From Sphingomonadales bacterium (GTDB lineage: Bacteria; Pseudomonadota; Alphaproteobacteria; Sphingomonadales; Sphingomonadaceae): a DNA stretch of 64,000 nucleotides. The notes under the pieces were generated by a model, which worked only from the letters and a program-made list of their open reading frames with translations, was not told the origin of the DNA and made no database searches. Both the position numbers and the translations under genes were made by a program. Location of the stretch: contig CANIRZ010000003.1 in assembly GCA_947470185.1 (NCBI GenBank), positions 62,001-126,000 on the forward strand, given 5' to 3'. Of this stretch, positions 36,767 to 54,177 are shown one piece after another. Numbering within the stretch: position 1 is the stretch's first letter; each line of letters begins with the position of its first letter.

Positions 36767-36842
36767 GGGCGCTTAGCTCAGTTGGTAGAGCATCTCGTTT
36801 ACACCGAGAGGGTCAGCGGTTCGAGCCCGTTAGCGCCCACCA
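36767..36842 (+). tRNA. tRNA-Val (anticodon TAC), CCA encoded
   Basis: All four arms fold: acceptor GGGCGCT/AGCGCCC, D arm GCTC/GAGC, anticodon arm TCTCG-TTTACAC-CGAGA with TAC at the anticodon, and T arm AGCGG-TTCGAGC-CCGTT. Discriminator base A and CCA at 36840-36842 are encoded. The gene sits at the boundary between housekeeping genes and an accessory region; no second copy of its 3' end (an attR) was found within the window. Confidence 0.96.
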
Positions 36843-36952
36843 TATTTCTCAACGGCTTACGTGCCGCTGTCCGTGCAAGTCGCAGCATCTTTCAATTTCC
36901 AGCAAGCACATAGCAATCACCGAGCGACGCTGCGTTGCGTAATCGACTTGCC

Positions 36953-38509
36953 CTATTTAAGTTCGGGAATGCCGCACGAAACTAGGAACGCGTATGTCTC
37001 GTCATAAAACGATGGTGGTCGAGTGGGGTCCTTTGCGTCGCCGTGAGGCACGAATATGATCAGACCCTGCCTCGCGCGCGTGAGCAGGACACGATAAGCG
37101 TTCAGGAGGTACAACTGGTTCGTCTCGTTGCGAACCTGCTGCCATTTAGTGCCCTTGAAGGCGTAGTGCTGCCAAGCGCCGTCTGCGCGACGCAAATCAG
37201 CATCCCAGCAGACGCCAGCCCAATCCAGCTCCAAACCCTGAATGTCAAACTGTGTCGCGACTTCTTCCAAATAGTAGGACGAGCGCACATCAAATCGGTC
37301 ATTCAAAAAATACGATGTCGGATCGATCTTTGATTTTACGTGAACGCCTTCGGGACGCAGCCTGTAGCCTCCAGCCGATGCCACAAGGCCAAACCGTTCG
37401 GTCCCCCGTGCTTTGCCTCTGAGCCACTCACGGGCGCATGATAGGTCACGCGTCAAGGTTATCGGGTAGCGGTCAGACCAGTCGTTGAAGACATCGCGTG
37501 CCTTTGCGGCGTCGCCGTCCAACAACAGGCTGGCGAATGCCTCGTTGAGTTCAATCACATCCATGTCGGCCATGGAAAGGCCCGTGCGGGCGAGAAGCTT
37601 GCGTGCTGCTTCGATCGGGCCCACGCCCATGATGCGTGGCTCGACGCCGGCCGAGGCCATGGCGACGATGCGGGCACGGGGGGTGAGTCCATGTGCCTTC
37701 GCCGCCGCTGCCGACGCCACAAGCATCGCCGCCGCGCCGTCGTTGAGACCTGAAGCATTGCCCGCCGTCACTGTGCCATCGGGTTTGACCACCGGCTTCA
37801 GTTTCACCAGCGCTTCAAGGCTTGTCGCGCGGGGATGCTCATCAATACTGAAGAGGATGTTTTCCCCCTTCTTCTGCGGGATCGACACCGGCACGATCTC
37901 GGCGGCAAGGCGGCCAGAGGTTTGTGCGGCGGCAGCCTTTACCTGGCTCGCCAGGCTGAAGGTGTCCTGCTCTTCGCGCGTGATACCCCATTCTTTCGCG
38001 ACATTCTCGGCCGTCTGCGGCATCGGATCGACGCCATAGGCCGCCTTCATCGCCGGATTGACGAACCGCCAGCCGAGCGTCGTGTCCTCGATCACCTGGC
38101 TTCGGTCGAACGCGCCGCTGGCCTTGCCGAGCACATAAGGCGCACGCGACATGCTCTCCACGCCGCCGGCGATGATAAGTTCGGCGTCGCCCGACCGGAT
38201 CGCCTGCGCTGCGCTGCCGATGGCATTGAGCCCGGAGCCACAGAGCCGGTTGACCGTGACCCCTGGCGCTTCCTTAGGCAGACCGGCGAGCAGCGCGGCC
38301 ATACGCGCGACGTTGCGATTGTCCTCGCCCGACTGGTTGGCGCAGCCGAGGATGACGTCGTCCAACGTGCCCCAGTCGACTTGTGGATTGCGCGCGACAA
38401 GCGCTCGGATCGGGAGGGCCGCAAGATCATCGGCCCGTACAGTCGCGAGCATCCCGTTCAAGCGGCCGATCGGCGTGCGGATCGCGTCGCAGATGAATGC
38501 ATCCGTCAT
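36953..38509 (-). CDS. Chimeric ORF: truncated PcaF-type thiolase fused to the C-terminus of a DUF2075 protein
   Basis: Residues 1-327 are a beta-ketoadipyl-CoA thiolase with the nucleophile Cys in '[12 protein letters not shown]' and the motif '[11 protein letters not shown]'. At about position 37529 homology stops, just where thiolases continue to their 'NPNGGAIALGHP' and 'CxG' catalytic motifs; both are missing. Residues 328-518 are instead the tail of a DUF2075 (helicase-like) protein, e.g. '[20 protein letters not shown]' and '[20 protein letters not shown]'. The fusion is in frame. The thiolase cannot be active; the DUF2075 part lacks its ATPase core. Its ATG overlaps the pcaJ stop by four bases, so it once was the last gene of pcaIJF. 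Confidence 0.85.
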
Positions 38510-39162
38510 GCGGCTGGCTTCACGGCGCTGACATCGAGAGCAGCGCCGGTCTTCGTCACGATTTCTTCTAACGGTACGCCAGGTGCGGCTTCGAGGAGCA
38601 TCAGCCGGCCTTGCTTCCTGTCGATGGCAATGACCGCCAGGTCGGTGATGATGAGATCGACAACCCCCTTGCCGGTCAGCGGCAGGGAACAGGTCTCGAG
38701 GATCTTTGGGGCGCCGCCTTTCGAGACATGGTCCATGACTACGACCACGCGCTTGACGCCAGCAACCAGATCCATCGCCCCGCCCATGCCCTTGATCATC
38801 TTGCCGGGGATCATCCAGTTGGCAATGTCGCCATTCTCGGCAATTTCCATCGCGCCGAGCACGGTCAGGTCGATATGCCCGCCACGAATCATCGCGAACG
38901 ACGCGGCGCTGTCGAAATAGGCGGTTTGCGGTAGCTCGCTGATGGTCTGCTTGCCGGCATTGATTAGGTCAGGATCTTCTTCGCCCGCATACGGGAAAGG
39001 CCCGATACCGAGCATCCCGTTTTCTGATTGCAGCGTGACTTCGACACCCGGTGGAACATGGTTCGCGACCAAGGTTGGAATGCCAATGCCGAGATTCACA
39101 TAATAGCCGTCTTGCAGTTCTTTTGCCGCGCGCGCTGCCATTTCATCGCGGGTCCAGCTCAT
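38506..39162 (-). CDS. pcaJ: 3-oxoadipate CoA-transferase subunit B
   Basis: A 218-residue subunit of the enzyme that transfers CoA from succinyl-CoA to 3-oxoadipate. The catalytic Glu is in '[14 protein letters not shown]' at about residue 50. '[19 protein letters not shown]' and the C-terminal CoA-transferase fold are complete, so this gene is intact. It overlaps the genes on both sides by four bases. Both partners are damaged (subunit A has a stop codon, the thiolase is truncated), so it probably has no working complex here. Acetoacetate CoA-transferase (ScoB) is the alternative name. Confidence 0.9.
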
Positions 39163-39869
39163 TGTACTGTCTCCCGCTCGCGCACCGTCCTGAATTCGAT
39201 TTTCTTATCATAAGGCGCGCCGATTATCATGCGTTGCACATATACGCCGGGCAGATGGATTGCGTCGGGGTCGAGGCTGCCCACAGGCACGATCTCCTCC
39301 ACCTCAACCACACAATATTTGCCACAAGTGGCGGCAGGCTGGTTAAAGTTGCGGGCCGTTTTGCGGAATGTAACGTTGCCGCTTTCGTCTGCTTTCCATG
39401 CTTTAACCAAAGCGAGGTCCGCATAAATCCCGCGTTCGAGGATATATTCCTCGCCACCAAATTCCTTGGTCTCTTTGCCTTCCGCAACCAGTGTGCCGAC
39501 ACCGGTTTTGGTTTAGAACCCGGGAATGCCCGCGCCGCCCGCCCGCATACGCTCGGCAAGCGTTCCCTGCGGGCAGAATTCAACCTCCAGCTCACCTGCC
39601 AGATATTGGCGTTCAAATTCCTTGTTCTCGCCAACATAAGACGAGATCATTTTCTTGACCTGTTTCGTACGCAGCAGTTTGCCGATACCTTCGCCGTCGA
39701 TGCCAGCATTGTTCGACACAAAGGTCAGGCCGGTCACGCCGCTGTCGCGCACTGCATCCAACAGACGCTCGGGCAAGCCGCACAGGCCAAAGCCGCCGCT
39801 GGCAATCAATATATCGTTTTTGAGAAGACCTTCGAGCGCCGATGCCGCGTCTGGGAAAAGCTTGTTCAT
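39159..39869 (-). pseudogene. pcaI: 3-oxoadipate CoA-transferase subunit A, interrupted by an in-frame stop codon
   Basis: One 237-codon frame encodes a complete PcaI/ScoA except for a TAA at 39513-39515. Before it: 'GTLAERMRAGGAGIPGF'; after it: 'TKTGVGTLVAEGKETKEF', continuing to 'FNQPAATCGKYCVVEVEE'. The family has Phe-Tyr-Thr-Lys-Thr-Gly here, so a Tyr codon (TAC or TAT) became TAA by one base change. The upstream piece is 118 residues, half the protein, and lacks the second half of the fold. The downstream piece still has a usable ATG at 39410. Without subunit A, PcaJ cannot act. Confidence 0.88.
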
Positions 39870-40019
39870 TTTTATCCTTGCTGTGTTTGTAGAAATGGAC
39901 CTCAGCCAATCAACACGATTACCTTCGACAAGCTACGTCACAGGCTTGAAATTTGTCGTTCGTTGAGGCCATGTCGCTTAATCTGCACCGCGGCAGCGAA
40001 GGTGAAGCGGCGCCGAAGT

Positions 40020-40916
40020 TTATTTTGCGGCAGCAGCAATCCTGCTTTCGTAAGACGCGATAAATGTATTCAGCCGTTCCGGGTCTGGAGGGATTGGTCC
40101 TGAAAGCCGCTCGCCAACCTCGGTGTCGAGCAGACATGGCAGGACTTGTGGGTAGAGGCTTCCCGAGAGGGGATCGCCACCCTTCAGATCATGACTCCAC
40201 AGTTCGCGCACTACCCCTTCGATCGGTTTGTAACGCACATCGTCTCCCGTCCAGCGTGTCGTGATCGCGCGACGGGTCAGCGGCGCGCTGTTCGCGCGTG
40301 ATCCGTGCAGGATCATGGCATTGAACAGAATTGCGTCGCCCGGTTCCAGTTCCCAACTGAGGATATGATATTGGTCCCGATTGGCATCAATATCTGGCAG
40401 AGCCTCAACCTGTTCGTTGCTTGGCACCCGGCCTCCAACGCCAACTGCCTCAAACTTTTTTCCCCAAAGGTGCGATCCCGCTACGAATTCCAGGGCCGAC
40501 CCGTCGGCGGTGACCGGTTCCATCGCTGTCCAGATCGACGCGATTTGAGAGCCCGCCAGCGGCCAGAACGTATGATCGTGATGCCAAGGCGTTCCTGTCC
40601 CGCCCAGCTTTTCCTTAATGAAAATCTGGTCATAAAAGAAATTGAGGCGCCCGGTCTTTAGCGCCTGCGCGACCGGCTTCGCAGTGGGTCCGAACAGCAC
40701 GAAATCCCGGATAACATCATTCTGCATCCACTCATAGTAGGAGCCGTCAACTTTGATGCCGGTGCCAAGAACGCCCCGTTCCCGGATGGCATCGAGCTCC
40801 TTGGCAAGTAGGTTGATGCACTCAGTTGAATAAATTCCTCGCAGGCAAATAACGCCATCGCGCGCGAAGTCTTCAATCTCGTTCGTGGTCAAATCACGAT
40901 AGGGAGTTTGGTCCAT
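40020..40916 (-). CDS. Phytanoyl-CoA dioxygenase (PhyH) family Fe(II)/2-oxoglutarate oxygenase
   Basis: A 298-residue oxygenase. The iron ligands HxD...H are in 'TPWHHDHTFWPL' and 'MILHGSRANSAPLTRRAI', the latter also giving the Arg that binds 2-oxoglutarate. PhyH relatives hydroxylate acyl chains or small aromatic/terpenoid substrates. It is the last gene of the leftward aromatic operon, 44 bases after the extradiol dioxygenase gene. The start was set at 40916 (GGAACGG upstream); an ATG at 40943 is possible. Substrate unknown. Confidence 0.85.
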   Translation of the reverse strand: MDQTPYRDLTTNEIEDFARDGVICLRGIYSTECINLLAKELDAIRERGVLGTGIKVDGSYYEWMQNDVIRDFVLFGPTAKPVAQALKTGRLNFFYDQIFIKEKLGGTGTPWHHDHTFWPLAGSQIASIWTAMEPVTADGSALEFVAGSHLWGKKFEAVGVGGRVPSNEQVEALPDIDANRDQYHILSWELEPGDAILFNAMILHGSRANSAPLTRRAITTRWTGDDVRYKPIEGVVRELWSHDLKGGDPLSGSLYPQVLPCLLDTEVGERLSGPIPPDPERLNTFIASYESRIAAAAK

Positions 40917-40960
40917 TAATCCGTTCCATTTGCTAAGTGTCATGAGCGCGAGCGCAGAAT

Positions 40961-41911
40961 CTAGGAAACAAAATCTGCCGGTGAAGGCGGTCCCCATTGG
41001 TGCCCCATCATTGTCGGCAGATCGGCCACATTCATGGGCGCGTGTGCGTCAAACAGATCGCCGTCAGTCCAATGCTCAACGCGGTGGCCCCAAGGATCGC
41101 GCCAGTAGTCGAACACCTGACTGCCAAGGATGTGGCGTCCAACACCCCAGTCGTGGCTGTAACCTTTTGCCTCAAGGTGGCTGCTCCCCACCATCAGGTC
41201 GTCAAGATCGGCGACTTCGAACGCGGCGTGATGGAATTTTGGCGGTATGCCAGGAACCGACGCGAAATTGAGCGTATGATGGTCAACCGGTTCGTTGCCG
41301 CGATCACAGCGGATGAACAATGCGGCGAGATCGTCATTGGGTGCGCGAACCTCGTCCGAAATCAGTAGGCCGAAGCGGCTTAGCCACCAGTCCCAAGTCT
41401 TTTCCATGTCCGACACAGCTAGCACAACATGGCCAAGGCGGACGACGTGCGCGGGAGCTGCTGCCACGCGCTTCGCTGTGCCCTGACGTTCACGGCGCGA
41501 TGTGATGTTCCACGGATAATTTGGTGCCTGAATTAATGTTGGCACGCGCTCCTTGCCTGATATGGCCTGAACGCGAAAGCCATCAGGATCGGTCATCTGC
41601 ACCATCTGACCGCCTCCAGGGCCGGGTGCCGCCTCCACCGCAACACCTTCCACGTCGGCAAGAGCCTTGAGATCATCAGCATCGCGCACACGAATGGCAA
41701 GGCTGACGAAGGCGGGTTCGCCTTCGACAGTTTCATGCAGAAAGGGCGCGTCACCGATGCCGCGCATACGAAGCACCCCGTCGCGGGCATCTTCGGCTGC
41801 CGAGAGACCAAAATCCTCCAGAAAAGCCTTCATCTTCGCCAGATCAGGGACTGAAAAACGGACCGATTCCACGTCGACGGCCTTTGCGATCGATGATGAA
41901 TTACTTGTCAT
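40961..41911 (-). CDS. Extradiol (VOC-fold) ring-cleavage dioxygenase
   Basis: A 316-residue two-domain vicinal-oxygen-chelate protein. The C-terminal domain carries the iron ligands: His in 'RLGHVVLAVSDM', His in 'KFHHAAFEVADLDD' and Glu in 'YWRDPWGHRVEHWTDGD', which is the signature of type I extradiol dioxygenases. The N-terminal VOC domain has lost its ligands, as usual. It would open a catechol-type ring next to the two hydroxyls made by the flavin monooxygenases beside it. AAGGAG lies ahead of the ATG. Confidence 0.88.
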   Translation of the reverse strand: MTSNSSSIAKAVDVESVRFSVPDLAKMKAFLEDFGLSAAEDARDGVLRMRGIGDAPFLHETVEGEPAFVSLAIRVRDADDLKALADVEGVAVEAAPGPGGGQMVQMTDPDGFRVQAISGKERVPTLIQAPNYPWNITSRRERQGTAKRVAAAPAHVVRLGHVVLAVSDMEKTWDWWLSRFGLLISDEVRAPNDDLAALFIRCDRGNEPVDHHTLNFASVPGIPPKFHHAAFEVADLDDLMVGSSHLEAKGYSHDWGVGRHILGSQVFDYWRDPWGHRVEHWTDGDLFDAHAPMNVADLPTMMGHQWGPPSPADFVS

Positions 41912-41929
41912 GAAACCTGCTCCTTTTTC

Positions 41930-43537
41930 TCATATAGTGTGTCGTGATCCGGTCGCCCGCTCCAACGCGCCGGTCCACCGATTGCCGCGCCATGCGACAT
42001 GCTGATCGGGCCGGACGAGCGTCAGCATGGCGCCGTACAGCTCCGCAACTGGGACGCCGTGCGGCTCTATTACGGTTAGTGGCAAGCCAAGCGTTCGTGC
42101 GTCCGCTGCTGCTTTCTCTATGTCATCCGGATCGGCTCCATCGGCGACGACCAAGGTGAAGTCCTGACCAAACAGATCATAAAGCGAACGGCCATCCGTC
42201 ATCCATGCGTGGGGTGCGAGGCAACCGGGGCGGGCACTCGGTACATAGACCTCGCTATTATGCGGCGGCAAGGGTGCCGTTTCAGCCTCGATGATCGGCG
42301 AGCTATGATAGCCAAGGCCAAGCACTGTCCCGAGCGTGTTGAACTCGCGGCCTTTGGAAGCCAGAATTCCTGCGCCAACCTTGGCCCGGATCGCGTCACC
42401 TTGCGGGGTGTCGTCCTCGATTTCGGGGGGCGTCGGCGCGACGTAGATGGCGTAGTTTGCCAGCGCCTCGTCAAGCACCGCGCGATGCACGGGGCGGCGT
42501 TCGGCTTCATAGCTGGCGACGAGGTCGTCTCCGCCCCAGCCTTGCAATGTTGCGGCGATTTTCCACCCCAAATCGACGCCATCGCCAACGCCCATGTTCA
42601 TACCGTAACCGCCTGCTGGCGGATGCAGATGGCATGCGTCTCCCGCCAATAGGATGCGGCGATCTGCATAGCGGTCGGCCAATAATTCGCTTGCCGTCCA
42701 GGAGTCGGCGCTCAATATTTCAAAAGGCAGATTGATGCCGGTGCGCTCGCGGATCAACGCGGCGGCAGCATCATGCGAAAGCGTCTCGCCTGGCTTGGCT
42801 CCGCCCGGCATAAAGGCCCAGATATCATCCCGATCCATAGGACCGAGAGCGCTAAACCCATCCTTGCCGATCTGCCAGTAAATGACGGCCGGGCCGTGGC
42901 CATGCGCCTCGGCCAAACCGGGCGCACGGAAGATGATGTTATAATGATGGGACAGGCCATAACGGCCCTCCATCTTCGCACCAATAGCTGCGCGAACGGC
43001 ACTCCGTGCGCCATCTGCACCAATCAAGTAACGGGCAACGACGGTTCGCTCCTGCCCATTTGAAGTCTTTATCGTTGCCGTCACATGCTCTTCGTCCTGC
43101 ACAACTGAGACGAAGCTGGTGTCGAACTTGACTTCGACTTCAGGCAATGATCGCGCTTTTTCAAGCATCACCATTTCGAGTGTATATTGCGGCACCCATT
43201 GTGCATGTTCAGGATAGAACGGCGATTGCGCCGGCGCGGCATTGAATGCATCGGCAAACCGTGCGAGTTCATGCCCGGCAAGCCGGGTGACGAATATCAT
43301 ATTATTGGGGTAATCGATGCCGAAAGGAGCCTCTTTGGCAAGTGTGTCTGCGATCCCCCAGCGCCGCAAATGGGTGCGCGTGCGGACATTGCTTGTCTTG
43401 GCACGGGGTGCAAGGCCGACGCGGATATTCTGTTCCACGAGCAACACGCGGACACCGCGCGTCCCGAGTTCAATCGCTGCGGCTAGCCCGACGGGGCCAG
43501 CCCCGATGATAAGAACTTCGGTTTCGATGTCCGGCAT
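41930..43537 (-). CDS. FAD-dependent aromatic monooxygenase (PheA/TfdB/MhpA family)
   Basis: A 535-residue flavoprotein hydroxylase. The N-terminal FAD motif is 'IIGAGPVGLAAAIELGTRGV', the middle 'DGARSAVRAAIGA' binds FAD/NADPH, and 'GDACHLHPPAGGYGMNMGVG' is the second FAD motif. The C-terminal ~130 residues form the thioredoxin-like domain found in phenol hydroxylases. It should hydroxylate a phenolic ring ortho to a hydroxyl, preparing it for the extradiol enzyme. Its ATG shares one base with the preceding stop (TGATG). Confidence 0.9.
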   Translation of the reverse strand: MPDIETEVLIIGAGPVGLAAAIELGTRGVRVLLVEQNIRVGLAPRAKTSNVRTRTHLRRWGIADTLAKEAPFGIDYPNNMIFVTRLAGHELARFADAFNAAPAQSPFYPEHAQWVPQYTLEMVMLEKARSLPEVEVKFDTSFVSVVQDEEHVTATIKTSNGQERTVVARYLIGADGARSAVRAAIGAKMEGRYGLSHHYNIIFRAPGLAEAHGHGPAVIYWQIGKDGFSALGPMDRDDIWAFMPGGAKPGETLSHDAAAALIRERTGINLPFEILSADSWTASELLADRYADRRILLAGDACHLHPPAGGYGMNMGVGDGVDLGWKIAATLQGWGGDDLVASYEAERRPVHRAVLDEALANYAIYVAPTPPEIEDDTPQGDAIRAKVGAGILASKGREFNTLGTVLGLGYHSSPIIEAETAPLPPHNSEVYVPSARPGCLAPHAWMTDGRSLYDLFGQDFTLVVADGADPDDIEKAAADARTLGLPLTVIEPHGVPVAELYGAMLTLVRPDQHVAWRGNRWTGALERATGSRHTI

Positions 43538-44664
43538 CAATAGGGTTCACCTATCGTCGCAAATGCCTTGGTGAGCAGCGCTACATTCTCGGACGGCGGG
43601 GCATTCTCCTGTTCAAGCTGGCCGAGCCTGACGCTGGTTTCGACGACAAGCTTTACCCGCTCAAACCGCCGCGTCATGAACATGTCCAGCGCCTCGGGCA
43701 GTGTTTCTGCTGCTGCGATACACTGCCCCAGCACAACAGCGTCTTCCACGGCCATCCCGCCGCCCATCCCCATATGCGCGCTCGTGGCATGAGCGGCATC
43801 GCCGATGACGAGGGTCCGACCTTTGTGCCAAGGGTTTTGAAGGAGAAGCCAATCGAAGGGGCGGCCGATCAACTCGGATGTTTCATCAAGACGGCTGCGC
43901 AACTCTTTCATGGCCGGAGCGGACATAGAATCGAGCAGTGCCGTAAAAAGAGACCTAACTTTCGCGTCGGAAACCCTGCCCGCCTCAGGCACGTTGAATA
44001 CCGCTGGGATATAAACAAGACCTTGCGGCAGATAGTAAAAGCCCAGCTTCCCCACCTCGGACATATACCAGCCCTCATCTTGAACCTGCGGCCCAGGAGC
44101 CATCCAGCGAATGCTCAGCTGGCCCGAATATTGCGGCTTGGGCGCGTCGGGGAAAATGAGATCGCGCGTTTTTGAATTGATACCATCAGCGGCAACGAAG
44201 AGGTCGTACCTGCCTGTCTCGCCATCAGTAAAGGTAACGTCCACGCCGTCTGCGCCGTCTTCGAAGCTTTCATAGCTTACACCCTTGCGGACACGGACAC
44301 CTAAGCGTTCGGCTTCTCTTTGGACAACGTCGAGAAACGCGGGGCGATAGACGCCGACACCGTCGACTGCGCCGGGCCAAGTCGGCCGCTGCGGCCCGGG
44401 ATTGGTTATTTCACCCGTTGTGGAATTGCGAAACGATGCAGCGGTGCTGCCAAGCGCTGGCCGGCCCGTTGCGTATACTTCGTCAAATATCCCGAGCTCA
44501 ACCAGTGCCATAGCCGCACGGCCCGAAAAGGCCAGCGATGCACCGAGGGGCACATGCGCCAACTCGACAACATCAACCTTGACGCCTGCCTTTGCCAGCG
44601 CGATGGCGGCATTCATTCCGGCGATGCTTCCGCCAACGATCAATGCGGTTGAGATACAGGCCAT
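43537..44664 (-). CDS. FAD-dependent monooxygenase (salicylate/3-hydroxybenzoate hydroxylase type)
   Basis: A 375-residue single-component flavin hydroxylase. FAD binding: 'ALIVGGSIAGMNAAIALAKAG' at the N-terminus (GGSIAG replaces GxGxxG), then 'LFVAADGINSKTRDLI' and 'GDAAHATSAHMGMGGGMAVED'. Length fits the UbiH/salicylate-hydroxylase branch without the C-terminal domain of its neighbour. Two hydroxylases in one operon suggest two successive ring oxidations. The start at 44664 follows GGGAG. Confidence 0.88.
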   Translation of the reverse strand: MACISTALIVGGSIAGMNAAIALAKAGVKVDVVELAHVPLGASLAFSGRAAMALVELGIFDEVYATGRPALGSTAASFRNSTTGEITNPGPQRPTWPGAVDGVGVYRPAFLDVVQREAERLGVRVRKGVSYESFEDGADGVDVTFTDGETGRYDLFVAADGINSKTRDLIFPDAPKPQYSGQLSIRWMAPGPQVQDEGWYMSEVGKLGFYYLPQGLVYIPAVFNVPEAGRVSDAKVRSLFTALLDSMSAPAMKELRSRLDETSELIGRPFDWLLLQNPWHKGRTLVIGDAAHATSAHMGMGGGMAVEDAVVLGQCIAAAETLPEALDMFMTRRFERVKLVVETSVRLGQLEQENAPPSENVALLTKAFATIGEPY

Positions 44665-44666
44665 TG

Positions 44667-45383
44667 CTAGCTCCCTTTTTTCTTGAATGTGTCGAACTGA
44701 GTCTGACGGAACATCGCGGCTCCCCCTTGCATGACGGGCGAGCCGTGCATCACGCAAATCTTGTCGAAATCGAATGTGCCTAGCTTGGCAATGCTGGCGA
44801 GTGCCAACTGCGGATCTTCGGTCGCGACGGGAAGCTTGAGGCCCCGGCGATTGGCGAAGGCATCCGCCGGGAACAGCACACCACCGTGACGCGCCCAGTG
44901 AAAGGCAAGTTGTCCGTTGCAGTGCCCCGGAATGTGAATGGCTGTCATATCAGGCGCGAAATCGGGGCGGTCGCCATCTTCGATCAACCGGTCCACTTTA
45001 ACCGGCTCGACGGTCGCGACTTTGCCAGCGAGAATTTTAGATAGGATAAGGTTTCGCCATCCGGGCGACGGACACATGCCATCGCGCATCGTAGTGCCGG
45101 CCTCCATCATCGGCGCGTCGAGCGGGTGGGCCCAGACGATTGCTCCGGTTTCGCGTTTCAGCGCAGCGGCGCTGCCAATATGATCGGGATGGCAATGCGT
45201 AAGCACGATATGCCGCACATCGTCTGGTGCTTTGCCCAACGAGCGCACGGCATCAAGGATCTTGGACGCACGACCCGGGAAGCCGGTGTCCAGAACGACG
45301 AGCCCTGCATCCGTTTTCAGGATGTAGACATTGACCAAACCGGGCAAGATATACAGATCGTCGGCAAGCTGCTTCAAAGCCAT
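44667..45383 (-). CDS. MBL-fold metallo-hydrolase
   Basis: A 238-residue metallo-beta-lactamase-fold hydrolase. The metal motif is 'VLTHCHPDHIG' (HxHxDH, about residues 71-81), with 'HIPGHCNGQLAF' and 'LFPADAFANR' giving the later His and Asp ligands. In an aromatic operon such an enzyme may hydrolyse a lactone, ester or thioester intermediate. It is not a beta-lactamase by context. Its stop lies two bases before the next gene's start. Confidence 0.86.
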   Translation of the reverse strand: MALKQLADDLYILPGLVNVYILKTDAGLVVLDTGFPGRASKILDAVRSLGKAPDDVRHIVLTHCHPDHIGSAAALKRETGAIVWAHPLDAPMMEAGTTMRDGMCPSPGWRNLILSKILAGKVATVEPVKVDRLIEDGDRPDFAPDMTAIHIPGHCNGQLAFHWARHGGVLFPADAFANRRGLKLPVATEDPQLALASIAKLGTFDFDKICVMHGSPVMQGGAAMFRQTQFDTFKKKGS

Positions 45384-45399
45384 ACTGTTGCTACCCTTT

Positions 45400-46059
45400 T
45401 CACGAAACCAGACATTCGGCACCGGCACCTTCGAGCCATTGCCCCATCCGAACATTTAGCGCTTCAATTTCCGGACCTCTTGTGCCGGGCAGATTATTGT
45501 AGACGGCAAAGCCGACCTTGGCTTGCAGATAAGCGAGATGGCGATAACCGACGGGGAAGCTAGTCAGTAATTCTTGGTCGAGTTCAGGCACTTTTGCGGG
45601 ATGGACCGGAGTCATCCGGTCCATCTCATAGACCGGTTGCCGGTGAACGATGCCCCATCGTCCGTCGCGCTTTTCCAACGCATCAATGAAACGACCAAGA
45701 CAGGTTACGTCGACCTCGATACCGTCTATGTCGCCGCGTTGCACGATCTGCATTTTCGAGTGCGCCACAGCGCGTATGCCCTGCACATCTACGCTTGCAC
45801 CGCCGAGCGAATGGAGGCCGATAATGCCTTGGTCAAATCCCTTTCGACACCCGGCGATGAATTCAGCGGCACTCGCCTGAAACCAGGTCGCATGCATACG
45901 GCCGTCATCATGCCAGACGGTGGCAAACCGCGCCCAATCGCCCGCATCGCGCCAAAGCACCCAATTTTGCAGAAGTTCATGAATAGCGAACCGGTCCAGC
46001 GCACCTTCGGTGACGGGCTTCTGCTCGGATTGTTGTTCGTCCACGGCATTTATTAGCAT
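45400..46059 (-). CDS. NTF2-fold (SnoaL-like) protein
   Basis: A 219-residue protein, first gene of the leftward aromatic operon. The alpha+beta cone fold is suggested by 'AIHELLQNWVLWRDAGDWAR', 'WHDDGRMHATWFQASAAEFI' and 'VHRQPVYEMDRMTPVHP'. SnoaL-like proteins in such operons may act as isomerases, cyclases or small dehydratases, or as hydroxylase subunits. Which applies cannot be told. It faces the LysR gene across 127 bases. Confidence 0.75.
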   Translation of the reverse strand: MLINAVDEQQSEQKPVTEGALDRFAIHELLQNWVLWRDAGDWARFATVWHDDGRMHATWFQASAAEFIAGCRKGFDQGIIGLHSLGGASVDVQGIRAVAHSKMQIVQRGDIDGIEVDVTCLGRFIDALEKRDGRWGIVHRQPVYEMDRMTPVHPAKVPELDQELLTSFPVGYRHLAYLQAKVGFAVYNNLPGTRGPEIEALNVRMGQWLEGAGAECLVS

Positions 46060-46134
46060 ATCATAGCCATCCTCTCAGCGCAGTTGATTATCGGAACGGG
46101 ACCATTGCAATAAGATGCCAATTGCCTAAGGTTG

Positions 46135-46149
46135 TTACCAATTAGGTAT
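46135..46149 (+). promoter_or_regulatory. LysR-type regulator binding site candidate
   Basis: TTAC-N7-GTAT in the 127-base divergent gap matches seven of eight bases of the LysR-family ATAC-N7-GTAT consensus. It is 38 bases upstream of the regulator gene, the normal place for a site that controls both directions. Confidence 0.5.
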
Positions 46150-46186
46150 AGGGAGGGGGTGCAAAGACTGGCACCTCGAGCGCGAT

Positions 46187-47104
46187 ATGAAACTGCATCA
46201 TCTGCGAAATGTAGTCGCCGTTGTAGAAAGGGGGAGCCTGCGCGCGGGTGCCAAGCATTTGGGCCTTGCACAACCTGCAGTATCGCGGAGCATTAAGGAG
46301 CTGGAACAGGAGCTCGGGCTCATTCTGTTTGAGCGCAATAAGTTTGGCATGACGCTGACCCACGCAGGCGAAGTCTTCGTTAGGCGCGCAAAGGCTATAC
46401 AGGCGGAATTCGCACGAACGCTTGAGGAAATGGAGCATCTCAAGGGAGAAGATCGGGGATTGATCACGGTCGGGTGTTCGAGCGCCGCGTTGATCGCGAT
46501 GGTGCCGACAATCGTAAGCAAGTTCCATGTCAAATATCCCAATATCCGCATAAAATTGCTTGAAGGCTCGCTGCCAATGCTCGAAACCCAGATCAGGGAT
46601 GGGCTTATCGATCTCTATTATGGCCCGGTTACTGGTGGTTTCGTTGACCCGGCGCTTCTAATCGAGACTTTGTTTGAAAATGAGCGGATGATCATTGGTC
46701 GCAAAGATCACCCGCTGCGCTTCGCCACATCGCTACAGGATCTCGTTGGTGCGTCTTGGGTGACGACGCCAATGGCAATAGACAGCGACAGCGAAGTAAA
46801 CAGCGTCTTCGCAGCCGCCGGCCTTCCTGCACCGCGGATCGTCATGCAGGCATCGTCGGCGATGAATTTGGCCGTAATTGTTGCGACATCTGAACTGCTT
46901 GCGCCCGTTCCACAGCAGTGGATGGAGATTATTCGAGCCACCGGGCTTATGGAGCGCATTCCCGTCCACGAGGTATCCAAGGCCCCCCGAATCTGCGCGG
47001 TACGGCGCGCCAATATTCCGCTGACACCTGCGTCTGAATTTTTGAACGATCTGGCGATGCGCGCAGCTTCAACATATGCGTACAAAAACCGTGACATAGC
47101 CTGA
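46187..47104 (+). CDS. LysR family transcriptional regulator
   Basis: A 305-residue LysR-type regulator. The DNA-binding domain is 'MKLHHLRNVVAVVERGSLRA' followed by 'AKHLGLAQPAVSRSIKELEQ'; the C-terminal periplasmic-binding-like effector domain is complete. Lying divergent from the six-gene aromatic operon and upstream of a TonB receptor, it most likely activates both with an aromatic pathway intermediate as inducer. The fold is certain; the target is inferred from position. Confidence 0.92.
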   Translation: MKLHHLRNVVAVVERGSLRAGAKHLGLAQPAVSRSIKELEQELGLILFERNKFGMTLTHAGEVFVRRAKAIQAEFARTLEEMEHLKGEDRGLITVGCSSAALIAMVPTIVSKFHVKYPNIRIKLLEGSLPMLETQIRDGLIDLYYGPVTGGFVDPALLIETLFENERMIIGRKDHPLRFATSLQDLVGASWVTTPMAIDSDSEVNSVFAAAGLPAPRIVMQASSAMNLAVIVATSELLAPVPQQWMEIIRATGLMERIPVHEVSKAPRICAVRRANIPLTPASEFLNDLAMRAASTYAYKNRDIA

Positions 47105-47370
47105 CACGAATTGATATTCTCCCCCGCGCAGTCATTGATTGTCGCTTTTGCAGCCAGATCCCGATTTCATCGCGCATCGAAAGTCCTCCCGATACCTTAC
47201 GGGTAACAACATCTGTCAAATGCCATCTTTGCTATCGGTTGCCCTCGGCTAATGACAGATGTGGAGCGACCGGAAATGGCAGCACGGGATTCACAAATCC
47301 TCAATGCACCATGCGGCGCGAACAAAATGACAAGCTACCCAGAATGGTAGCAATAAATGGAGGAGAGGTT
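47105..47370. other. Intergenic region upstream of the TonB receptor gene
   Basis: These 266 bases hold no protein gene. They must contain the promoter of the TonB-FAH-transporter run; no clear regulatory repeat was seen. Confidence 0.4.
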
Positions 47371-49746
47371 ATGTCAATTTCGCGCAAAACTTGGCTTTTG
47401 TATTCAGCCGCCGTTCTGCTGTCGCCCGTCGCAGCGGCCGCGCAGGAGTCTGATCCAGCTACGAACCCTTCAGCCCAAGACAATGAAGGGCTGGAAGAAA
47501 TCGTCGTCACTGCGCAGCAGCGCGACGAAAATCTTCAGAAAGCAGCAGTTGCGCTCTCTGTCGTGACCGGAGCGGACCTTCAGAAATCCGGCATTGTCGG
47601 GGTAGATACGCTGCAGAAGTCTGTGCCTGCGCTGCAGGTTGCGAACGGCTCTGTAGGCAATTTCATCTTCATCCGCGGCGTTGGCAGCTTCTCGGTCTCG
47701 CCGACCAGCGACCCTGCTGTGGCGTTTAACTATGACGGCGTTTATGTTGGTCGTACGGGCTCAACCACCGGCGCACTATTCGACCTCGAACGCGTTGAAG
47801 TGCTGAAAGGTCCGCAAGGCACGCTTTATGGACGGAACGCGACCGCTGGCGCTATTAACATTTTGCCAAGCCAACCCCGTCTCGGTGAGACATCCGGCTA
47901 TGCCTCTGCGGGCTATGGCAACTATGACGCCTTAAGCCTCGAAGGCGCGATCAATGTGGCGGCGGGAGACAATGCCGGACTGCGTTTCTCCGGCATTTAT
48001 GCACAGCATGATGGATATTTGCGAGACGGTACAAGCTCGGACAAGACGTTGGGTTTGCGCGGGCAGCTCAAGGTCGAGCTTGACCCAAGACTGACGGTTC
48101 GCATTGCTGCCGACTTCTCGCATCAGGGCGGGACATCAACCGGATCAACCTACATTGGCAGATATGCTTTCAATCCATTGGCAGGTGCTTTTGCCTTTAC
48201 GCCCTCGAACCTTCCGGTTTCGGAAGGACTCTTCACCCCAGCTGCTGAGGCTTTCCGCCGAACCGGTGCTGCTGGTAACATTGCGGGACGGTTCAACGAT
48301 TCGCTCAGTGTTCCGCAATATGTCGACTCTGACATCTACGGCGTTTCGGCGCACATCGATTATGAGACCTCGATTGGCACAATCAGCCTGATCCCGGCCT
48401 GGCGGCATTCGTTGCGCGACATCCTGAGCACAGGTGCGGCGCAGCTTGTCGGCAACATATCCGAAGCCGATCAAACCTCTCTTGAGGTTCGGCTTGTCGG
48501 ACCGTCGGGCGGGACGATCGATTATATCCTCGGCGCTTATTATTTCAGCGAGGATATTGACGACGATACCCACAACACCGCGGGCACACAGGCTTCCTTC
48601 CAGCTCACTAAGACGCGCACGCGCTCACCATCGGCTTATGGTCGTCTGACTTTTAACGCCACTGACACGCTGCGTTTCACGGGCGGCGTCCGCTACACGA
48701 ACGACAAGAAAAATTTCACGAACTCGACCCGGACATTGGCGCTGCTTTGCACGATTCCGGCTGCGTCGGGCGGCTGCCCCAATGTGGCACTGCTCCCCTA
48801 TACCACGACATTCGAGGACCAGCCGGTTCGTCCTGCGACATCGGGTGCCGTTATACCAATTGCCAACGGCGGAGCGGTCCGCCGCGTTGATTCGGCGGCG
48901 ATAGGTCAATTCAACGTTGGTAAAGTTACCTATCGCGGGGCAGTGGAGTTCGACATTGCGCCACGATCTTTGCTCTACGCCAGCTTGGAGACGGGGTACA
49001 GAGCCGGAGGCTTTAACCCTGACACACCTTATGGTCCAGAGAGCATCACCGCCTATACCATCGGCTCGAAGAACCGCTTTTTCGACAACCGGCTTCAGCT
49101 CAACATCGAAGGCTTCTACTGGAAGTATCGCGATCAGCAGCTTAGCTATCTCGGGATCAACTCGTTGAACGCTGTCGGGCTACTGACCCGTAATATTGGG
49201 CGTTCCGTGGCCAAGGGCATCGAAGTGGAAGCACTCGCCCAAGTCACTCCGTCGACGCTGCTTAGGGCAAATGTCCAGTATCTCGACAGCGTGTATAAGT
49301 CGTTCACCTACGTCACGCCGGCGCGGCCATTTACCGGATGCGCAACGACACCATCGGCATCGCCCTCCGGCGCGCCATTCACAGTCAACTGCGCCGGATT
49401 TCCTTTGTTCAATGCCCCGAAATGGACAGTGAACCTCGGCGCGCAGCAGCGACTTACGCTCGGTGACAATCTCGAACTGGTGGTCGAGGCAGACACGCAG
49501 TATCGATCGGGCCGCTACACCAATTTCACGCTCACCGCACAGGATTACCAAGGCAGCACTTGGGTTTCCAATGCGCAGGCAACGCTCCTCGTCGACGACG
49601 GACGATTTGCGGTTTCGGCGTTTGTTCGAAATATCGAGAACGACCGCTACCAGACCTTTGCCACACAGGTCCCTGCGTCTAACCTTTATGTTTCAATTAA
49701 TTCGCAGCCGCGCACATACGGCATGCGGGTATCAACAAAGTTTTAA
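47371..49746 (+). CDS. TonB-dependent outer-membrane receptor
   Basis: A 791-residue receptor. Signal peptide ending near 'PVAAAAQ' (about residue 27), then the plug with 'LEEIVVTAQQRDENLQKAAV' and 'LFDLERVEVLKGPQGTLYGR', then a 22-strand barrel ending in 'YGMRVSTKF' with terminal Phe. Sphingomonads use such receptors for uptake of aromatic and other non-siderophore substrates. It heads a run with an FAH-family enzyme and an aromatic-acid transporter, so it probably brings the pathway substrate across the outer membrane. GGAGGAGAGG precedes the ATG at 47371. Confidence 0.92.
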   Translation: MSISRKTWLLYSAAVLLSPVAAAAQESDPATNPSAQDNEGLEEIVVTAQQRDENLQKAAVALSVVTGADLQKSGIVGVDTLQKSVPALQVANGSVGNFIFIRGVGSFSVSPTSDPAVAFNYDGVYVGRTGSTTGALFDLERVEVLKGPQGTLYGRNATAGAINILPSQPRLGETSGYASAGYGNYDALSLEGAINVAAGDNAGLRFSGIYAQHDGYLRDGTSSDKTLGLRGQLKVELDPRLTVRIAADFSHQGGTSTGSTYIGRYAFNPLAGAFAFTPSNLPVSEGLFTPAAEAFRRTGAAGNIAGRFNDSLSVPQYVDSDIYGVSAHIDYETSIGTISLIPAWRHSLRDILSTGAAQLVGNISEADQTSLEVRLVGPSGGTIDYILGAYYFSEDIDDDTHNTAGTQASFQLTKTRTRSPSAYGRLTFNATDTLRFTGGVRYTNDKKNFTNSTRTLALLCTIPAASGGCPNVALLPYTTTFEDQPVRPATSGAVIPIANGGAVRRVDSAAIGQFNVGKVTYRGAVEFDIAPRSLLYASLETGYRAGGFNPDTPYGPESITAYTIGSKNRFFDNRLQLNIEGFYWKYRDQQLSYLGINSLNAVGLLTRNIGRSVAKGIEVEALAQVTPSTLLRANVQYLDSVYKSFTYVTPARPFTGCATTPSASPSGAPFTVNCAGFPLFNAPKWTVNLGAQQRLTLGDNLELVVEADTQYRSGRYTNFTLTAQDYQGSTWVSNAQATLLVDDGRFAVSAFVRNIENDRYQTFATQVPASNLYVSINSQPRTYGMRVSTKF

Positions 49747-49761
49747 CGCGAGGACATTCGG

Positions 49762-50628
49762 ATGAAACTGCTGCGATTTGAAACGGGTGAAGGTGCGGCA
49801 ATTGGCGTGCTTCAGCCCGGCAACGAAGGTCGGATCATTCCGCTCGCTCCGCTGTCGAATGACTTTCCGACGATGTTGTCGATCATCAACGGCGGCAGTG
49901 CGGCGCTGGACCAGATCAGGGCACTCGCAATGCAAGGCGATGGCGCGTTCGATCTGGCCGATGCAAAATTGCTTGCTCCAATTGAGCGGCCCGGCAAATA
50001 TATGGCAATTGGCATGAACTATGCCAAACATATCGAGGAAGCAAAACGCCTGGGCCAGCCGACGCCGTCACAGCAGTTCTGGTTCAACAAGCAGACAAGC
50101 TGCCTCGCCGGGCCATTTGACGAGATCGAACTCGGTGTCAGTGAGCAGGTTGACTATGAGGTCGAACTCGGCGTCGTGATTGGTGCGCCTGCCAAGGGCG
50201 TGAGCGAGGCAGATGCCAAAAACCATATTTTCGGTTATGTCGTCGCCGACGATGTTTCCGCGCGCGACTGGCAGCGCCATTCGCCGACCTTCACAATGGG
50301 CAAGTCATTCGACACGCATGGCCCCATCGGTCCTTGGATTGTAACGGCAGACGAAATTGCCGATCCGCATGCGCTTGACTTGCGCTGTTTCGTCAATGGC
50401 GAACTTCGTCAGGACAGCAATACGAGCGAGCTAGTGTATAATATCTGGCAGCAGATTTCTTACCTTTCTACCGCCTTCACACTCGAAGCCGGCGACCTGA
50501 TCGCCACAGGAACGCCGTCTGGTGTCGGCATTGGAATGCAGCCGCCTTGTTTTCTCAAATCTGGCGATGTCGTCCGCTGCGAGATTGACGGTATCGGTGC
50601 CATCGAGAACCGGGTGGCCGCGAAATGA
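49762..50628 (+). CDS. Fumarylacetoacetate hydrolase family protein
   Basis: A 288-residue enzyme of the FAH superfamily, whose members cleave C-C bonds in or hydrate acylpyruvates and meta-cleavage products. Metal ligands are the Glu residues of 'DYEVELGVVIGAP' and the Asp of 'FGYVVADDVSARDWQ', preceded by 'YMAIGMNYAKHIEEAKRLGQ'. The C-terminal 'GDLIATGTPSGVGIGM' is typical. It fits the ring-fission product of the extradiol dioxygenase as substrate. It lies 15 bases after the receptor gene and overlaps the transporter gene. Confidence 0.9.
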   Translation: MKLLRFETGEGAAIGVLQPGNEGRIIPLAPLSNDFPTMLSIINGGSAALDQIRALAMQGDGAFDLADAKLLAPIERPGKYMAIGMNYAKHIEEAKRLGQPTPSQQFWFNKQTSCLAGPFDEIELGVSEQVDYEVELGVVIGAPAKGVSEADAKNHIFGYVVADDVSARDWQRHSPTFTMGKSFDTHGPIGPWIVTADEIADPHALDLRCFVNGELRQDSNTSELVYNIWQQISYLSTAFTLEAGDLIATGTPSGVGIGMQPPCFLKSGDVVRCEIDGIGAIENRVAAK

Positions 50629-51941
50629 GCGCTGGACCGACTGGCCTGTCGAGTGACAATCCGCTGGACAACGCACCGCTTCGTCGCGGTCAAATTCTGG
50701 TTCTGCTCATCGCCCTGTTACTTTCAGCTCTCGATGGCTATGATGCGATGTCGATGGCGTTTGTCGCACCCGTGCTCGCGGTCGACTGGGGAATCGGCAA
50801 AACGCTGACAGGATTGCTCCTGTCGAGCAGTCTGGTGGGTATGGCGATTGGTGCCGTCGGGCTTTCGCCGCTTGCTGATAAATATGGCAGAAGAGCGGTT
50901 GTTCTCGGCGCGCTCGTCATCATGACATTGGGCACGGCATTTTCAGCGGTTGCGCCGTCGGTGCCGGTTCTTGCTGCGGCACGTTTGCTCACCGGCGTCG
51001 GTATCGGCGTGATGGTCGCCATGACAACATTGCTGTCCGCAGAGTTTTCCAACGCAAAGCGCAGGCCGCTTGCTGTGGCGGCCATTGCAACGATTGGCTT
51101 CCCGCTAGGCGGCGTGATCGGTGGCCTCGGCGCATCTGTCATCCTCAAGACTGCAACATGGCACCTCGTGTTTTGGGCCGGTTCAATAGCCGGTGTAGTT
51201 CTGATTGCCCTTGTATTCCTGGCCCTCCCAGAATCGCCGGCCTATCTCATCGCCCGGCGCTCGCACGATTCGCTGGAACGGACCAACCGCGTGCTGTCGC
51301 GTCTTGGTCACTCGGCGATGTCTGAATTGCCCGCGGCAATCGACCGCCAGACTATCCGTTACCGCGCACTGTTCGAGCCGGGCCTTCGGCCAACCGTACT
51401 GCGCCTCACCGCAACGGCAATCCTGATTGCAACCACCGCCTATTTCAGTATCAACTGGTTGCCAGCGATGGTCGTCGACGCGGGCTTCACGCCAGCACAA
51501 GGGAGTCTTGTGTCGGCCCAGGCCGGCATGATTGGTTTTGTTGGCGGCGTCATCTTTGCAGCTTTCGCCTCCCGTTTCCCGCCGAACAAGGTCGCCGCCA
51601 CAGCGATGACCGCCGGCGCTGTTGCTTTGGTAGCGCTTGGCTTCGTTCCCCCGGCCCTTCACTTATTCGTTCTGACCGCAGGTGTTCTGGGCTTCTGCAT
51701 GGCGGGGACGACGGGCATGATGTACACCATATTGGCAACGACCTTTCCAGCAGGCTTACGAGCATCGGGTATGGGCTTTGTCATGGGCACAATGCGAATT
51801 GCGAGTGCTGCTGGCCCGGCGCTCGCGGGCGTTTTGTTTGCGCAAGGCATGACCCGCGCAAGCGTGTGCATAATCTTCGCCATCGCTCCGGTTATCGCTG
51901 CAATTCTTATCGCATCTCTGCCCAAGCAATCTGCGGCCTAA
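50625..51941 (+). CDS. MFS transporter, aromatic acid:H+ symporter (AAHS) type
   Basis: A 438-residue inner-membrane transporter with about 12 helices. AAHS features: 'LSALDGYDAMSMAFVAPVLA' with the Asp residues of helix 1, and the loop 'DKYGRRAVVLGAL' after helix 2. Members such as PcaK and BenK import benzoate or hydroxybenzoates. It overlaps the FAH gene by four bases; together with the TonB receptor it makes a two-membrane uptake route for the locus substrate. Confidence 0.9.
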   Translation: MSAGPTGLSSDNPLDNAPLRRGQILVLLIALLLSALDGYDAMSMAFVAPVLAVDWGIGKTLTGLLLSSSLVGMAIGAVGLSPLADKYGRRAVVLGALVIMTLGTAFSAVAPSVPVLAAARLLTGVGIGVMVAMTTLLSAEFSNAKRRPLAVAAIATIGFPLGGVIGGLGASVILKTATWHLVFWAGSIAGVVLIALVFLALPESPAYLIARRSHDSLERTNRVLSRLGHSAMSELPAAIDRQTIRYRALFEPGLRPTVLRLTATAILIATTAYFSINWLPAMVVDAGFTPAQGSLVSAQAGMIGFVGGVIFAAFASRFPPNKVAATAMTAGAVALVALGFVPPALHLFVLTAGVLGFCMAGTTGMMYTILATTFPAGLRASGMGFVMGTMRIASAAGPALAGVLFAQGMTRASVCIIFAIAPVIAAILIASLPKQSAA

Positions 51942-51975
51942 ACCCGAACACCATAAAGCTTATAGGAGATTGAAC

Positions 51976-52743
51976 GTGGCTGCTCGCAAAGTCATCATTA
52001 CCTGTGCCGTAACAGGCGGAATCCATACGCCGTCCATGTCCCCGCATTTACCCGTGACGGCGCAGCAGATCGCCGATTCAGCGGTTGGTGCTGCCGAAGC
52101 AGGAGCGGCCATCGTCCACCTTCACGCCCGCAATCCGCTGGATGGTCGGCCTGACCAATCGTCGGAAGCCTTCGAGCCAATTTTGCGCAGTATCAAACAG
52201 CGTTCGAATGTTGTTTGCAATATCACCCCCTCGTTCACAGCGGTGGAGACAAAAACTCAAGCCTCCGCAGATCTTACAAAACCTGCTACCTCGGCTAAGC
52301 CATACCCGCCCCGTAGCGCGGCAGTCGCCGCAATCGAGCGTCCCACAACTAGCAATGCCTTCGAAGATGGCTACACTTATGGCTACCGCTTGTGGCAAGC
52401 CAAATTCTATCGGGAAGCACAAGCAGCGCTTGAAGAAACCTTAGCCACATTTCCCGGAGATGAAAGGGCTAGCTATGCACGCAATTTGCTTGGCCGGGCA
52501 TGGTTGGATGACCAAAAACCGGCAACTGCGGTGAAGGTCTTTTACGAGAACTATAAAACCGACCCACGAGGTGCCCGCGCGCCAGATAGCTTGTTTTTCT
52601 TAGGCGCGGCGTTGGCAGACCTTGGGAAAGCGGTGGAGGCATGCGAAGCTTTTAGTGAATTGGCAAAATCATATCCTGATGAGGTGACCGATCGCTTAGC
52701 CGATCGCCTCAAATCTGGAAATATAAGGGCGAAGTGCAAGTAA
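51976..52743 (+). CDS. Chimeric ORF: truncated beta-keto-acid cleavage enzyme fused to the C-terminus of a CpoB/YbgF-like protein
   Basis: Residues 1-84 are the start of a BKACE (DUF849) enzyme: 'RKVIITCAVTGGIHTPSMSP' and 'AGAAIVHLHARNPLDGRPDQ', with the metal-binding HLHxR. At about 52228, after 'VVCNIT', homology stops; the barrel of ~300 residues is missing. The rest is the tail of a CpoB/YbgF-type protein: a Pro/Ala-rich linker, then TPRs 'GYRLWQAKFYREAQAALEET' and 'SLFFLGAALADLGKAVEACE', ending 'AKCK'. The fusion is in frame. The GTG at 51976 with AGGAG upstream was taken as start. Neither part can be fully functional: no barrel, no CpoB coiled coil or signal peptide. Confidence 0.82.
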   Translation: MAARKVIITCAVTGGIHTPSMSPHLPVTAQQIADSAVGAAEAGAAIVHLHARNPLDGRPDQSSEAFEPILRSIKQRSNVVCNITPSFTAVETKTQASADLTKPATSAKPYPPRSAAVAAIERPTTSNAFEDGYTYGYRLWQAKFYREAQAALEETLATFPGDERASYARNLLGRAWLDDQKPATAVKVFYENYKTDPRGARAPDSLFFLGAALADLGKAVEACEAFSELAKSYPDEVTDRLADRLKSGNIRAKCK

Positions 52744-52894
52744 CGCGGGAGCCGATAACCGTTCCGTCGGGTAAAGCTTGCCCAAAAAGATATTAACTAA
52801 AACCTCATTACCCACAGATGTTTCAAAGGTTGGATCGAAGTCAACCGTTGAAACGCATAAACAGGACGAGGCTTACCTTCAGCTCGATGCTGCT

Positions 52895-52969
52895 TCAGAA
52901 CACCATCTGCGTCAGCTTTTCGGTCTGCTCCTCAACAAATACCTGACGCTCAATCACCCATTTCGCTAA
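52895..52969 (-). pseudogene. Remnant of a second MGGYGSGR-family gene (3' end only)
   Basis: On the minus strand this segment reads 'WVIERQVFVEEQTEKLTQMV' and stops, closely resembling the C-terminal part 'EIERWVFVEDEIDKIAQMVF' of the intact neighbour, and at the DNA level about 60 bases of the two are recognisably alike. It begins exactly where the neighbour's gene ends, suggesting a tandem copy whose 5' part was lost. Confidence 0.65.
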
Positions 52970-53583
52970 GTTTGGTCGCGGAAGCGAGCACCCGCTGCGG
53001 CATCGCATCGAAACACCATCTGCGCTATCTTGTCGATTTCGTCCTCAACAAACACCCACCTCTCGATCTCCCGATCCAGTAACCGTTCCCGCGTCGGCTT
53101 ACGGGTATACTTAGACAGCGCCTTGCGGCGCACCTGAGCCTTGTAGATGGCGCGGTGGCTTCGATGTATAGGGCACTCGCGCTGCGAGCCGTAGGCCACG
53201 TTCCAGCCCTTCACAGAGGCGAAGTGTGTCTGTCCCGGTGGCAGCACCAGCGCGGCGCACCTGCGGCCTGTGCGTGGGCACAATGCAAACCAACGCTCGC
53301 CGCCATATGGCAGGGGGTGCTCTTCCAGATACACCACGCAGTTGATGACGTTGCCGAACGCGCGTCCTGTAATCCTCAGACACGGCGAAGGTTCAAGGCA
53401 GTGAACGTCGGTTACCAGCGTTAGATCAGCGATGGTCTCGCCGTATTGGCTCCACACTTGCTCGCGGCGGGCCATACAGTGTCGCTGCAACATGCCGAGC
53501 TGCTTTAGGTTCGACAGGTTGATGTTCAGGCAGTCATCAGTGGTCCAACGGTTGCTGCGTCGCCCAGATCCGTAGCCGCCCAT
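52966..53583 (-). CDS. MGGYGSGR-family protein of mobile regions, unknown function
   Basis: A 205-residue protein starting 'MGGYGSGRRSNRWTTDDCLN', an N-terminus recurring in uncharacterised proteins of plasmids and islands. Four to six cysteines are scattered through it, including 'CPRTGRRCAALVLPP' and 'SQRECPIHRSHRAIYKAQVR', which looks like a zinc-knuckle or zinc-ribbon pattern; the C-terminus is basic then charged. Nucleic-acid binding is a guess. A remnant copy lies directly downstream. Confidence 0.6.
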   Translation of the reverse strand: MGGYGSGRRSNRWTTDDCLNINLSNLKQLGMLQRHCMARREQVWSQYGETIADLTLVTDVHCLEPSPCLRITGRAFGNVINCVVYLEEHPLPYGGERWFALCPRTGRRCAALVLPPGQTHFASVKGWNVAYGSQRECPIHRSHRAIYKAQVRRKALSKYTRKPTRERLLDREIERWVFVEDEIDKIAQMVFRCDAAAGARFRDQT

Positions 53584-54141: not shown

Positions 54142-54177
54142 TTGTTGCAAGAGAATCATATTCTTAGAGAGGCCCAA

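Follow-up and report, generated by a model that had tools for sequence, protein, structure and literature searches.

A catabolic cassette with in-frame gene chimeras at both edges inside a tRNA-Val genomic island of a Sphingomonadales bacterium

The DNA analyzed here, a 64,000-nucleotide stretch from a Sphingomonadales bacterium (the window), comprises bases 62001 to 126000 of contig C3, one of 19 contigs in a draft assembly that totals 1.48 Mb and is 63.43% complete. The genome probably belongs to the Sphingomonadaceae, since for two genes G244, a genome of the same family, has identities equal to those of the named Novosphingobium rosa record. The window contains a 14.7-kb block of catabolic genes, and each edge of the block is a chimeric gene: pcaF, for a thiolase, is fused to the tail of the DUF2075 helicase gene PDC-S41 on the left, and a BKACE gene is fused to a fragment of cpoB on the right. 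Our best explanation as a whole, to which we assign a probability of about 0.82, is that the block is cargo of a 49.9-kb genomic island inserted in a tRNA-Val gene, that the chimeras arose through turnover of this cargo, and that the edges of the block have decayed. The island has a tRNA repeat at each end (attL and attR) and an integrase gene beside attR, its site is free of an insert in close kin, and the parent genes of both chimeras are unlinked in relatives.

The tRNA-Val island

The tRNA-Val gene (anticodon TAC; positions 36767-36842, plus strand) forms attL of the island. A reading made earlier from the sequence alone (the sequence-only reading) had already noticed this tRNA outside the left joint, at 0.6 kb; the actual distance is about 0.7 kb. 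An exact 61-bp repeat of the tRNA 3' end was found at attL (36783-36843, that is, C3:98783-98843) and at attR (C3:148701-148761), which lies beyond the window, and the insert from tRNA-Val to attR measures 49,918 bp. A tyrosine integrase gene with the domains Arm-DNA-bind_3, Phage_int_M and Phage_integrase ends about 98 bp from attR, and a PriCT_2/DUF3987 primase gene lies further inward from it at this far end.

The DNA to the left of tRNA-Val matched the relatives G018, G017 and G432 in gapped pieces of 88.7 to 95.8% identity that ended exactly at the end of the tRNA. In G018 and G432, the tRNA is directly followed by DNA equivalent to C3:148701 onward; in G017, there are 188 extra bases in between. 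The island thus shows the repeat at both ends, the integrase at one end and the empty site in kin that are expected of a tRNA-integrated island. Because attL and attR enclose the 14.7-kb block, the block is therefore an internal stretch of the island, and judged by its sequence the element is of an ordinary kind, a tRNA-integrated genomic island. No relaxase or conjugation genes were noticed among the frames read, in which no search aimed at them was made.

Known tRNA-integrated islands with catabolic cargo, an example being the integrative mobilizable opd element of Sphingobium fuliginis (PMC3516476), likewise have a tyrosine integrase gene at one end, a repeat of the tRNA 3' end on either side, an insert-free site in kin and genes for degradation. 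The island described here differs from these in having PDC-S41 at the tRNA end and gene chimeras at the cargo edges.

The insertion site was surveyed in 45 genomes of the genus with the G018 site as the query, one match being kept per side per genome and 11 further short matches being left out. The site was continuous in 3 genomes and had 116 to 2,089 extra bases relative to G018 in 26; the flanks were unlinked in 12, and only one side was matched in 1. Large inserts were present in the remaining three, namely this genome, G016 (41.1 kb) and G165 (14.3 kb). Near its far flank, the 41-kb tRNA-Val insert of G016 (G016:C2:312325-353163) repeats 47 bp of the tRNA end. At L148:5094-9684, the insert of G165 carries different genes of the aromatic-catabolism type, named by eye, and a fragment of the gene for a protein that we call MGGYGSGR, which is also found in the window.

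The two chimeric genes

The left chimera is an open reading frame of 518 amino acids (36953-38509, minus strand). Residues 1 to 328 match 3-oxoadipyl-CoA thiolase (PcaF), and from residue 325 onward the frame matches the SLFN-g3/DUF2075 helicase family at Pfam profile positions 170 to 353 of 354. The pcaF part (37540-38509, minus strand) encodes the thiolase up to about residue 328, with about 72 C-terminal residues gone; only positions 2 to 56 of 123 of Thiolase_C are covered, and 6pca aligned over 23 to 350 of 422. The C-terminal domain of the thiolase carries a catalytic His and a catalytic Cys, and the complete domain expected of a functional PcaF is lacking from the fused frame.

The other part of the left chimera (36953-37539, minus strand) is the tail of the PDC-S41 gene, a single-gene candidate phage defence in PADLOC-DB (DUF2075/SLFN-g3 helicase). 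The intact DUF2075 gene of the relative G015 is a PADLOC candidate PDC-S41 of nearly full length (654 of 657 profile positions; E value, 1.4e-290), whereas the window copy is only a tail fused to a piece of thiolase. It covers profile positions 459 to 653 of 657, so that the helicase portion is without its first half and the full-length match including the ATPase part, as expected of a functional PDC-S41, was not obtained. The DNA of the intact DUF2075 genes of G015 and G003 aligned with the window as far as 37537-37539. At the left joint (37527-37539, minus strand), 12 of 13 nucleotides are common to the G015 DUF2075 gene and to the window, where they are the NEAFAS codons of the thiolase.

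The right chimera is an open reading frame of 257 amino acids (51970-52743, plus strand). It matches BKACE up to about residue 86 (Pfam profile positions 1 to 92 of 274). From the Pfam profile and comparison with named loci, residues 1 to 86 were assigned to 51970-52227 (plus strand), leaving the BKACE portion without about two thirds of the protein; in the named loci with BKACE, the gene is not cut at residue 86, as judged by the absence of a cpoB match there at the search threshold. The joint (52228-52238, plus strand) consists of a few bases of uncertain origin, including CCTCGTT. The cpoB fragment (52236-52754, plus strand) comprises the last ~508 bp of the gene and 11 bp beyond its stop codon, and intact cpoB genes of relatives aligned from 52236-52238, in the best cases, up to 52754. 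The alignments to the intact parents place both joints to within about 10 bases. The profiles and the alignments to relatives together bear out the sequence-only reading that two chimeric open frames, with their tails pointing outward, are each joined in frame.

We then compared cpoB in relatives. It is a core gene, with matches at an E value of <1e-50 in 34 of 36 relatives of the same genus, and in the four relatives read it is flanked by a RodZ-like gene on one side and by tilS- and ftsH-like genes on the other (names by eye). The native (reciprocal) cpoB neighbourhood was not found in the assembly. In a tree, the window fragment has a long branch and clusters with the G035/G003/G020/G007 clade, not with G018/G017/G006; local supports of 0.87 to 0.93 around the fragment leave its exact position inside the clade unfixed. 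This grouping comes from the DNA comparison, since protein identities do not distinguish between G018 and G035, each being 74% identical to the fragment.

The cpoB fragment also shows excess amino-acid change. Against 7 of 9 clade members, its nonsynonymous divergence (dN) was 0.123 to 0.135 at a synonymous divergence (dS) of 0.605 to 0.721, while six pairs of intact cpoB genes with dS of 0.53 to 0.75 had dN of only 0.025 to 0.051. The excess indicates relaxed constraint on the fragment. As the PDC-S41 tail has no comparable excess, the two joints need not share one age.

The cassette contains a further lesion. Its pcaI-type gene for CoA-transferase subunit A (39168-39869, minus strand) has an in-frame TAA at 39513-39515; a frameshift in this gene was considered and rejected, the lesion being this nonsense codon. 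The incomplete enzymes at both joints and the nonsense codon make the edges of the cassette look like decayed cargo. With the thiolase, the helicase and BKACE truncated and pcaI interrupted, the lower pathway encoded by the cassette is probably dead, to judge from these frames. The frames of the ring hydroxylase, the transporter and the receptor are open.

Origin of the joints

We propose that a tyrosine integrase inserted the island into tRNA-Val, which would account for the 61-bp repeat at attL and attR. During turnover of the cargo, an aromatic-catabolism cluster, cut within pcaF and within BKACE, may have come in and been joined by end-joining or short-homology recombination, its pcaF end to the tail of the PDC-S41 gene at the end of the island and its BKACE end to a small piece of cpoB that derives from a different clade of the genus. 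The fusion proteins are probably remnants without a function. Turnover of cargo in a tRNA island can produce in-frame chimeras at the cargo edges, and a function of the fusion proteins is not required.

The sequence-only reading had offered CCTCGTT, which is indeed present at 37540-37546 and 52229-52235, as possible microhomology. In 20,000 draws, two random window positions had a 7-mer in common within 20 bp in 8.1% of cases (1.4% within 10 bp and 19.8% within 30 bp), so the shared heptamer is weak evidence. We rejected it as microhomology on account of this frequent random sharing and because the left copy is simply made up of the codons for a conserved Asn-Glu-Ala in the thiolase. At the left joint, a more convincing candidate is CATTCG(C/T)CAGCCT, which agrees at 12 of 13 positions with the G015 DUF2075 gene in an identical codon phase.

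This stretch also bears on the reading frames. For two joints on the same strand, the prior for both being in frame is 1 in 9, as had been estimated before, which is not strong for a feature selected because it was noticed. Recombination within the same-phase 13-nt stretch would keep the left frame by itself, so that the right joint would need only a 1-in-3 chance and its frame match is probably fortuitous.

Several observations weigh against cargo turnover with decayed edges. There is no sign of relaxed constraint on the PDC-S41 tail (dN/dS of 0.06 and 0.049, compared with 0.046 between intact copies), as might also be expected if the tail were still used, and the cpoB fragment is still an open frame. 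No second match crossing the left joint was present among the matches listed from the 45 genus genomes, and neither joint pattern was found in the viral contigs searched. A search made with the FAD (flavin adenine dinucleotide) hydroxylase of the cassette did not turn up a donor cluster in which pcaF and BKACE are intact.

The absence of the joints from these other genomes and contigs would also be expected if they were assembly chimeras, in which reads of the cassette were misjoined to PDC-S41 and cpoB sequence. The draft state of the genome and the missing native cpoB neighbourhood point the same way. However, the island lies complete, from one tRNA repeat to the other, in a single 158-kb contig, two joints on the same strand and in frame would be a rare outcome of error, and the long branch of the cpoB fragment is not what a misplaced normal cpoB of the host or of a relative would show. 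We consider an assembly error improbable, at around one chance in ten by our judgment.

Selection for hybrid proteins that are translated and useful appears still less probable. Both frames are open, the thiolase start overlaps the pcaJ stop, an AGGAG precedes the BKACE GTG at 51976 (seen by eye), and the PDC-S41 tail is under purifying selection when compared with intact copies. Yet the thiolase is missing its last ~72 residues, the helicase its first half and BKACE about two thirds, the cpoB fragment is without its protein start and relaxed, and pcaI is broken in the same cluster. Least probable of all, and very unlikely, is the single event proposed by the sequence-only reading, in which the block took the place of the 5' halves of DUF2075 and cpoB genes that had been divergent neighbours. 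The outward tails and in-frame joints had suggested it, but relatives show no linkage between the parent genes, an outcome that the sequence-only reading itself had named as refuting it: 582 kb separate DUF2075 from cpoB in G020 and, at the closest, about 457 kb in G005, and the two are on different contigs in G003, G015 and G035. Moreover, cpoB sits between its RodZ-like and tilS-ftsH-like neighbours in the four relatives, and the differing constraint on the two tails suggests joints of different age. The notion of a captured or rearranged catabolic cassette survives as horizontally acquired catabolic DNA on a tRNA-Val mobile element, and not as a replacement of the halves of two neighbouring genes.

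PDC-S41 beside tRNA genes and other island cargo

The PDC-S41 tail was matched at 16 places, the window included, in 12 of 61 genomes. With G165 and five weaker places added, 21 places outside the window, of at least that many, were examined for tRNAs; matches covering only a tRNA and spacer were not counted as PDC-S41 places. At 16 of the 21 (12/16 and 4/5; 17/22 with the window), a tail or an intact PDC-S41 is convergent to a tRNA within 662 bp, and in 9 of these 16 the spacing is 113 to 121 bp. The loci are window 36953-37539, L008, L011-L015, L017-L019, L021, L023, L148, L169, L170, L172 and L173; for G003:C5 (tRNA-Arg), whose tail had no match as protein, the count relies solely on similar DNA across the tRNA end and the spacer. 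The five places without a tRNA are the second copy in G005, G026 (where a tRNA-Lys 3' half was seen by eye near PDC-S41), G017:C36, G018:C85 and G034:C15. The adjoining tRNAs are Val, Pro, Lys (TTT and CTT), Ser, Thr and Arg; the nearest in G005 is Met. The genome analyzed here has a second PDC-S41 tail remnant at G000:C1:172983-173114 (L008, L092), 119 bp from a tRNA-Lys (TTT).

A comparable island of ~20.4 kb at tRNA-Pro in G020 has a 45-bp repeat, a PDC-S41 tail, an MGGYGSGR gene, a primase and an integrase, and its integrase (L077:17488-18786) is 84% identical to that of the tRNA-Val island (L091:1314-2603). At tRNA-Ser in G006, the layout is similar and the integrase is only 27% identical, which counts against one single integrase lineage; an exact tRNA repeat was looked for in this island and not found. 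The integrase had matches at an E value of 1e-60 or better in 12 of 45 genus genomes. Among ten integrase loci at 37 to 51% identity, seven had sequence resembling a tRNA T-arm or 3' end upstream and three had none, and at a further 11 integrase loci ARAGORN detected no complete tRNA. From the two islands with closely related integrases and from the scars, it is about an even chance that the genus has a family of integrative elements that keeps the candidate phage-defence gene PDC-S41 at the tRNA end, with related integrases, at least seven tRNA targets, and tails left as lasting scars mostly ~114 bp from the tRNA. If so, with the defence gene holding a constant place beside the tRNA, the scars throughout the genus would allow the history of integration and the switching of targets to be read. 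Literature searches on PDC-S41 found nothing, and one on DUF2075 with tRNA and genomic island found nothing related. The interesting feature of the island, an instance of an established type, is this recurrent tRNA/defence-gene end.

Between the joints, the minus strand of the cassette also encodes a pcaJ-type CoA-transferase subunit B (38506-39162), a PhyH-family dioxygenase (40020-40997), a protein of the glyoxalase/extradiol-dioxygenase superfamily (40961-41911), the FAD-binding aromatic hydroxylase (41930-43540), a second FAD-binding monooxygenase (43537-44757), an MBL-fold hydrolase (44667-45455), which fell short of the curated cut-off in each of the 25 listed models of the lactamase type, and a SnoaL_4 protein (45400-46059). 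On the plus strand are a LysR-type regulator (46187-47104), a TonB-dependent receptor (47239-49746) named by eye, an FAA_hydrolase family protein (49762-50628) and an MFS transporter (50625-51941) whose best model, the aromatic acid/H+ symport type, was matched under its curated cut-off. The receptor shares 46% identity with a receptor-like frame in L061 that adjoins the same hydroxylase there.

The FAD hydroxylase has homologues with 69 to 73% identity in seven named sphingomonad loci, all seven with FAH, BKACE or dioxygenase-family genes nearby, which points to cargo of a sphingomonad type. Aromatic-degradation clusters of Sphingomonas, Sphingobium and Novosphingobium have a similar hydroxylase and neighbours in a gene order that differs from the window. 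Identity did not exceed 73% in named genomes (12 loci), and the best plasmid match was 67.8%; among 396 genomes of the order, its own genome aside, there was one match at 70% and seven at 34 to 39%.

Outside the right joint, the gene and the inverted repeat mentioned in the sequence-only reading were confirmed as the MGGYGSGR gene (52966-53583, minus strand) and a repeat of 26 nt with a 4-nt loop (53748-53803). The MGGYGSGR protein, without a Pfam or PADLOC family, has matches in 10 of 61 genomes, and in the elements of G020 and G006 its gene adjoins those for the primase and the integrase. More island cargo occupies 54133-64000 (metal-dependent hydrolase, dehydrogenase, alpha/beta hydrolase, DJ-1, MaoC, MFS and enoyl-CoA hydratase), and the island runs on to C3:148761. 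Beyond the window, the same island carries genes of the copper-resistance type (L090:12641-17131), encoding CopC, CopD, a multicopper oxidase and a metal-sensing repressor.

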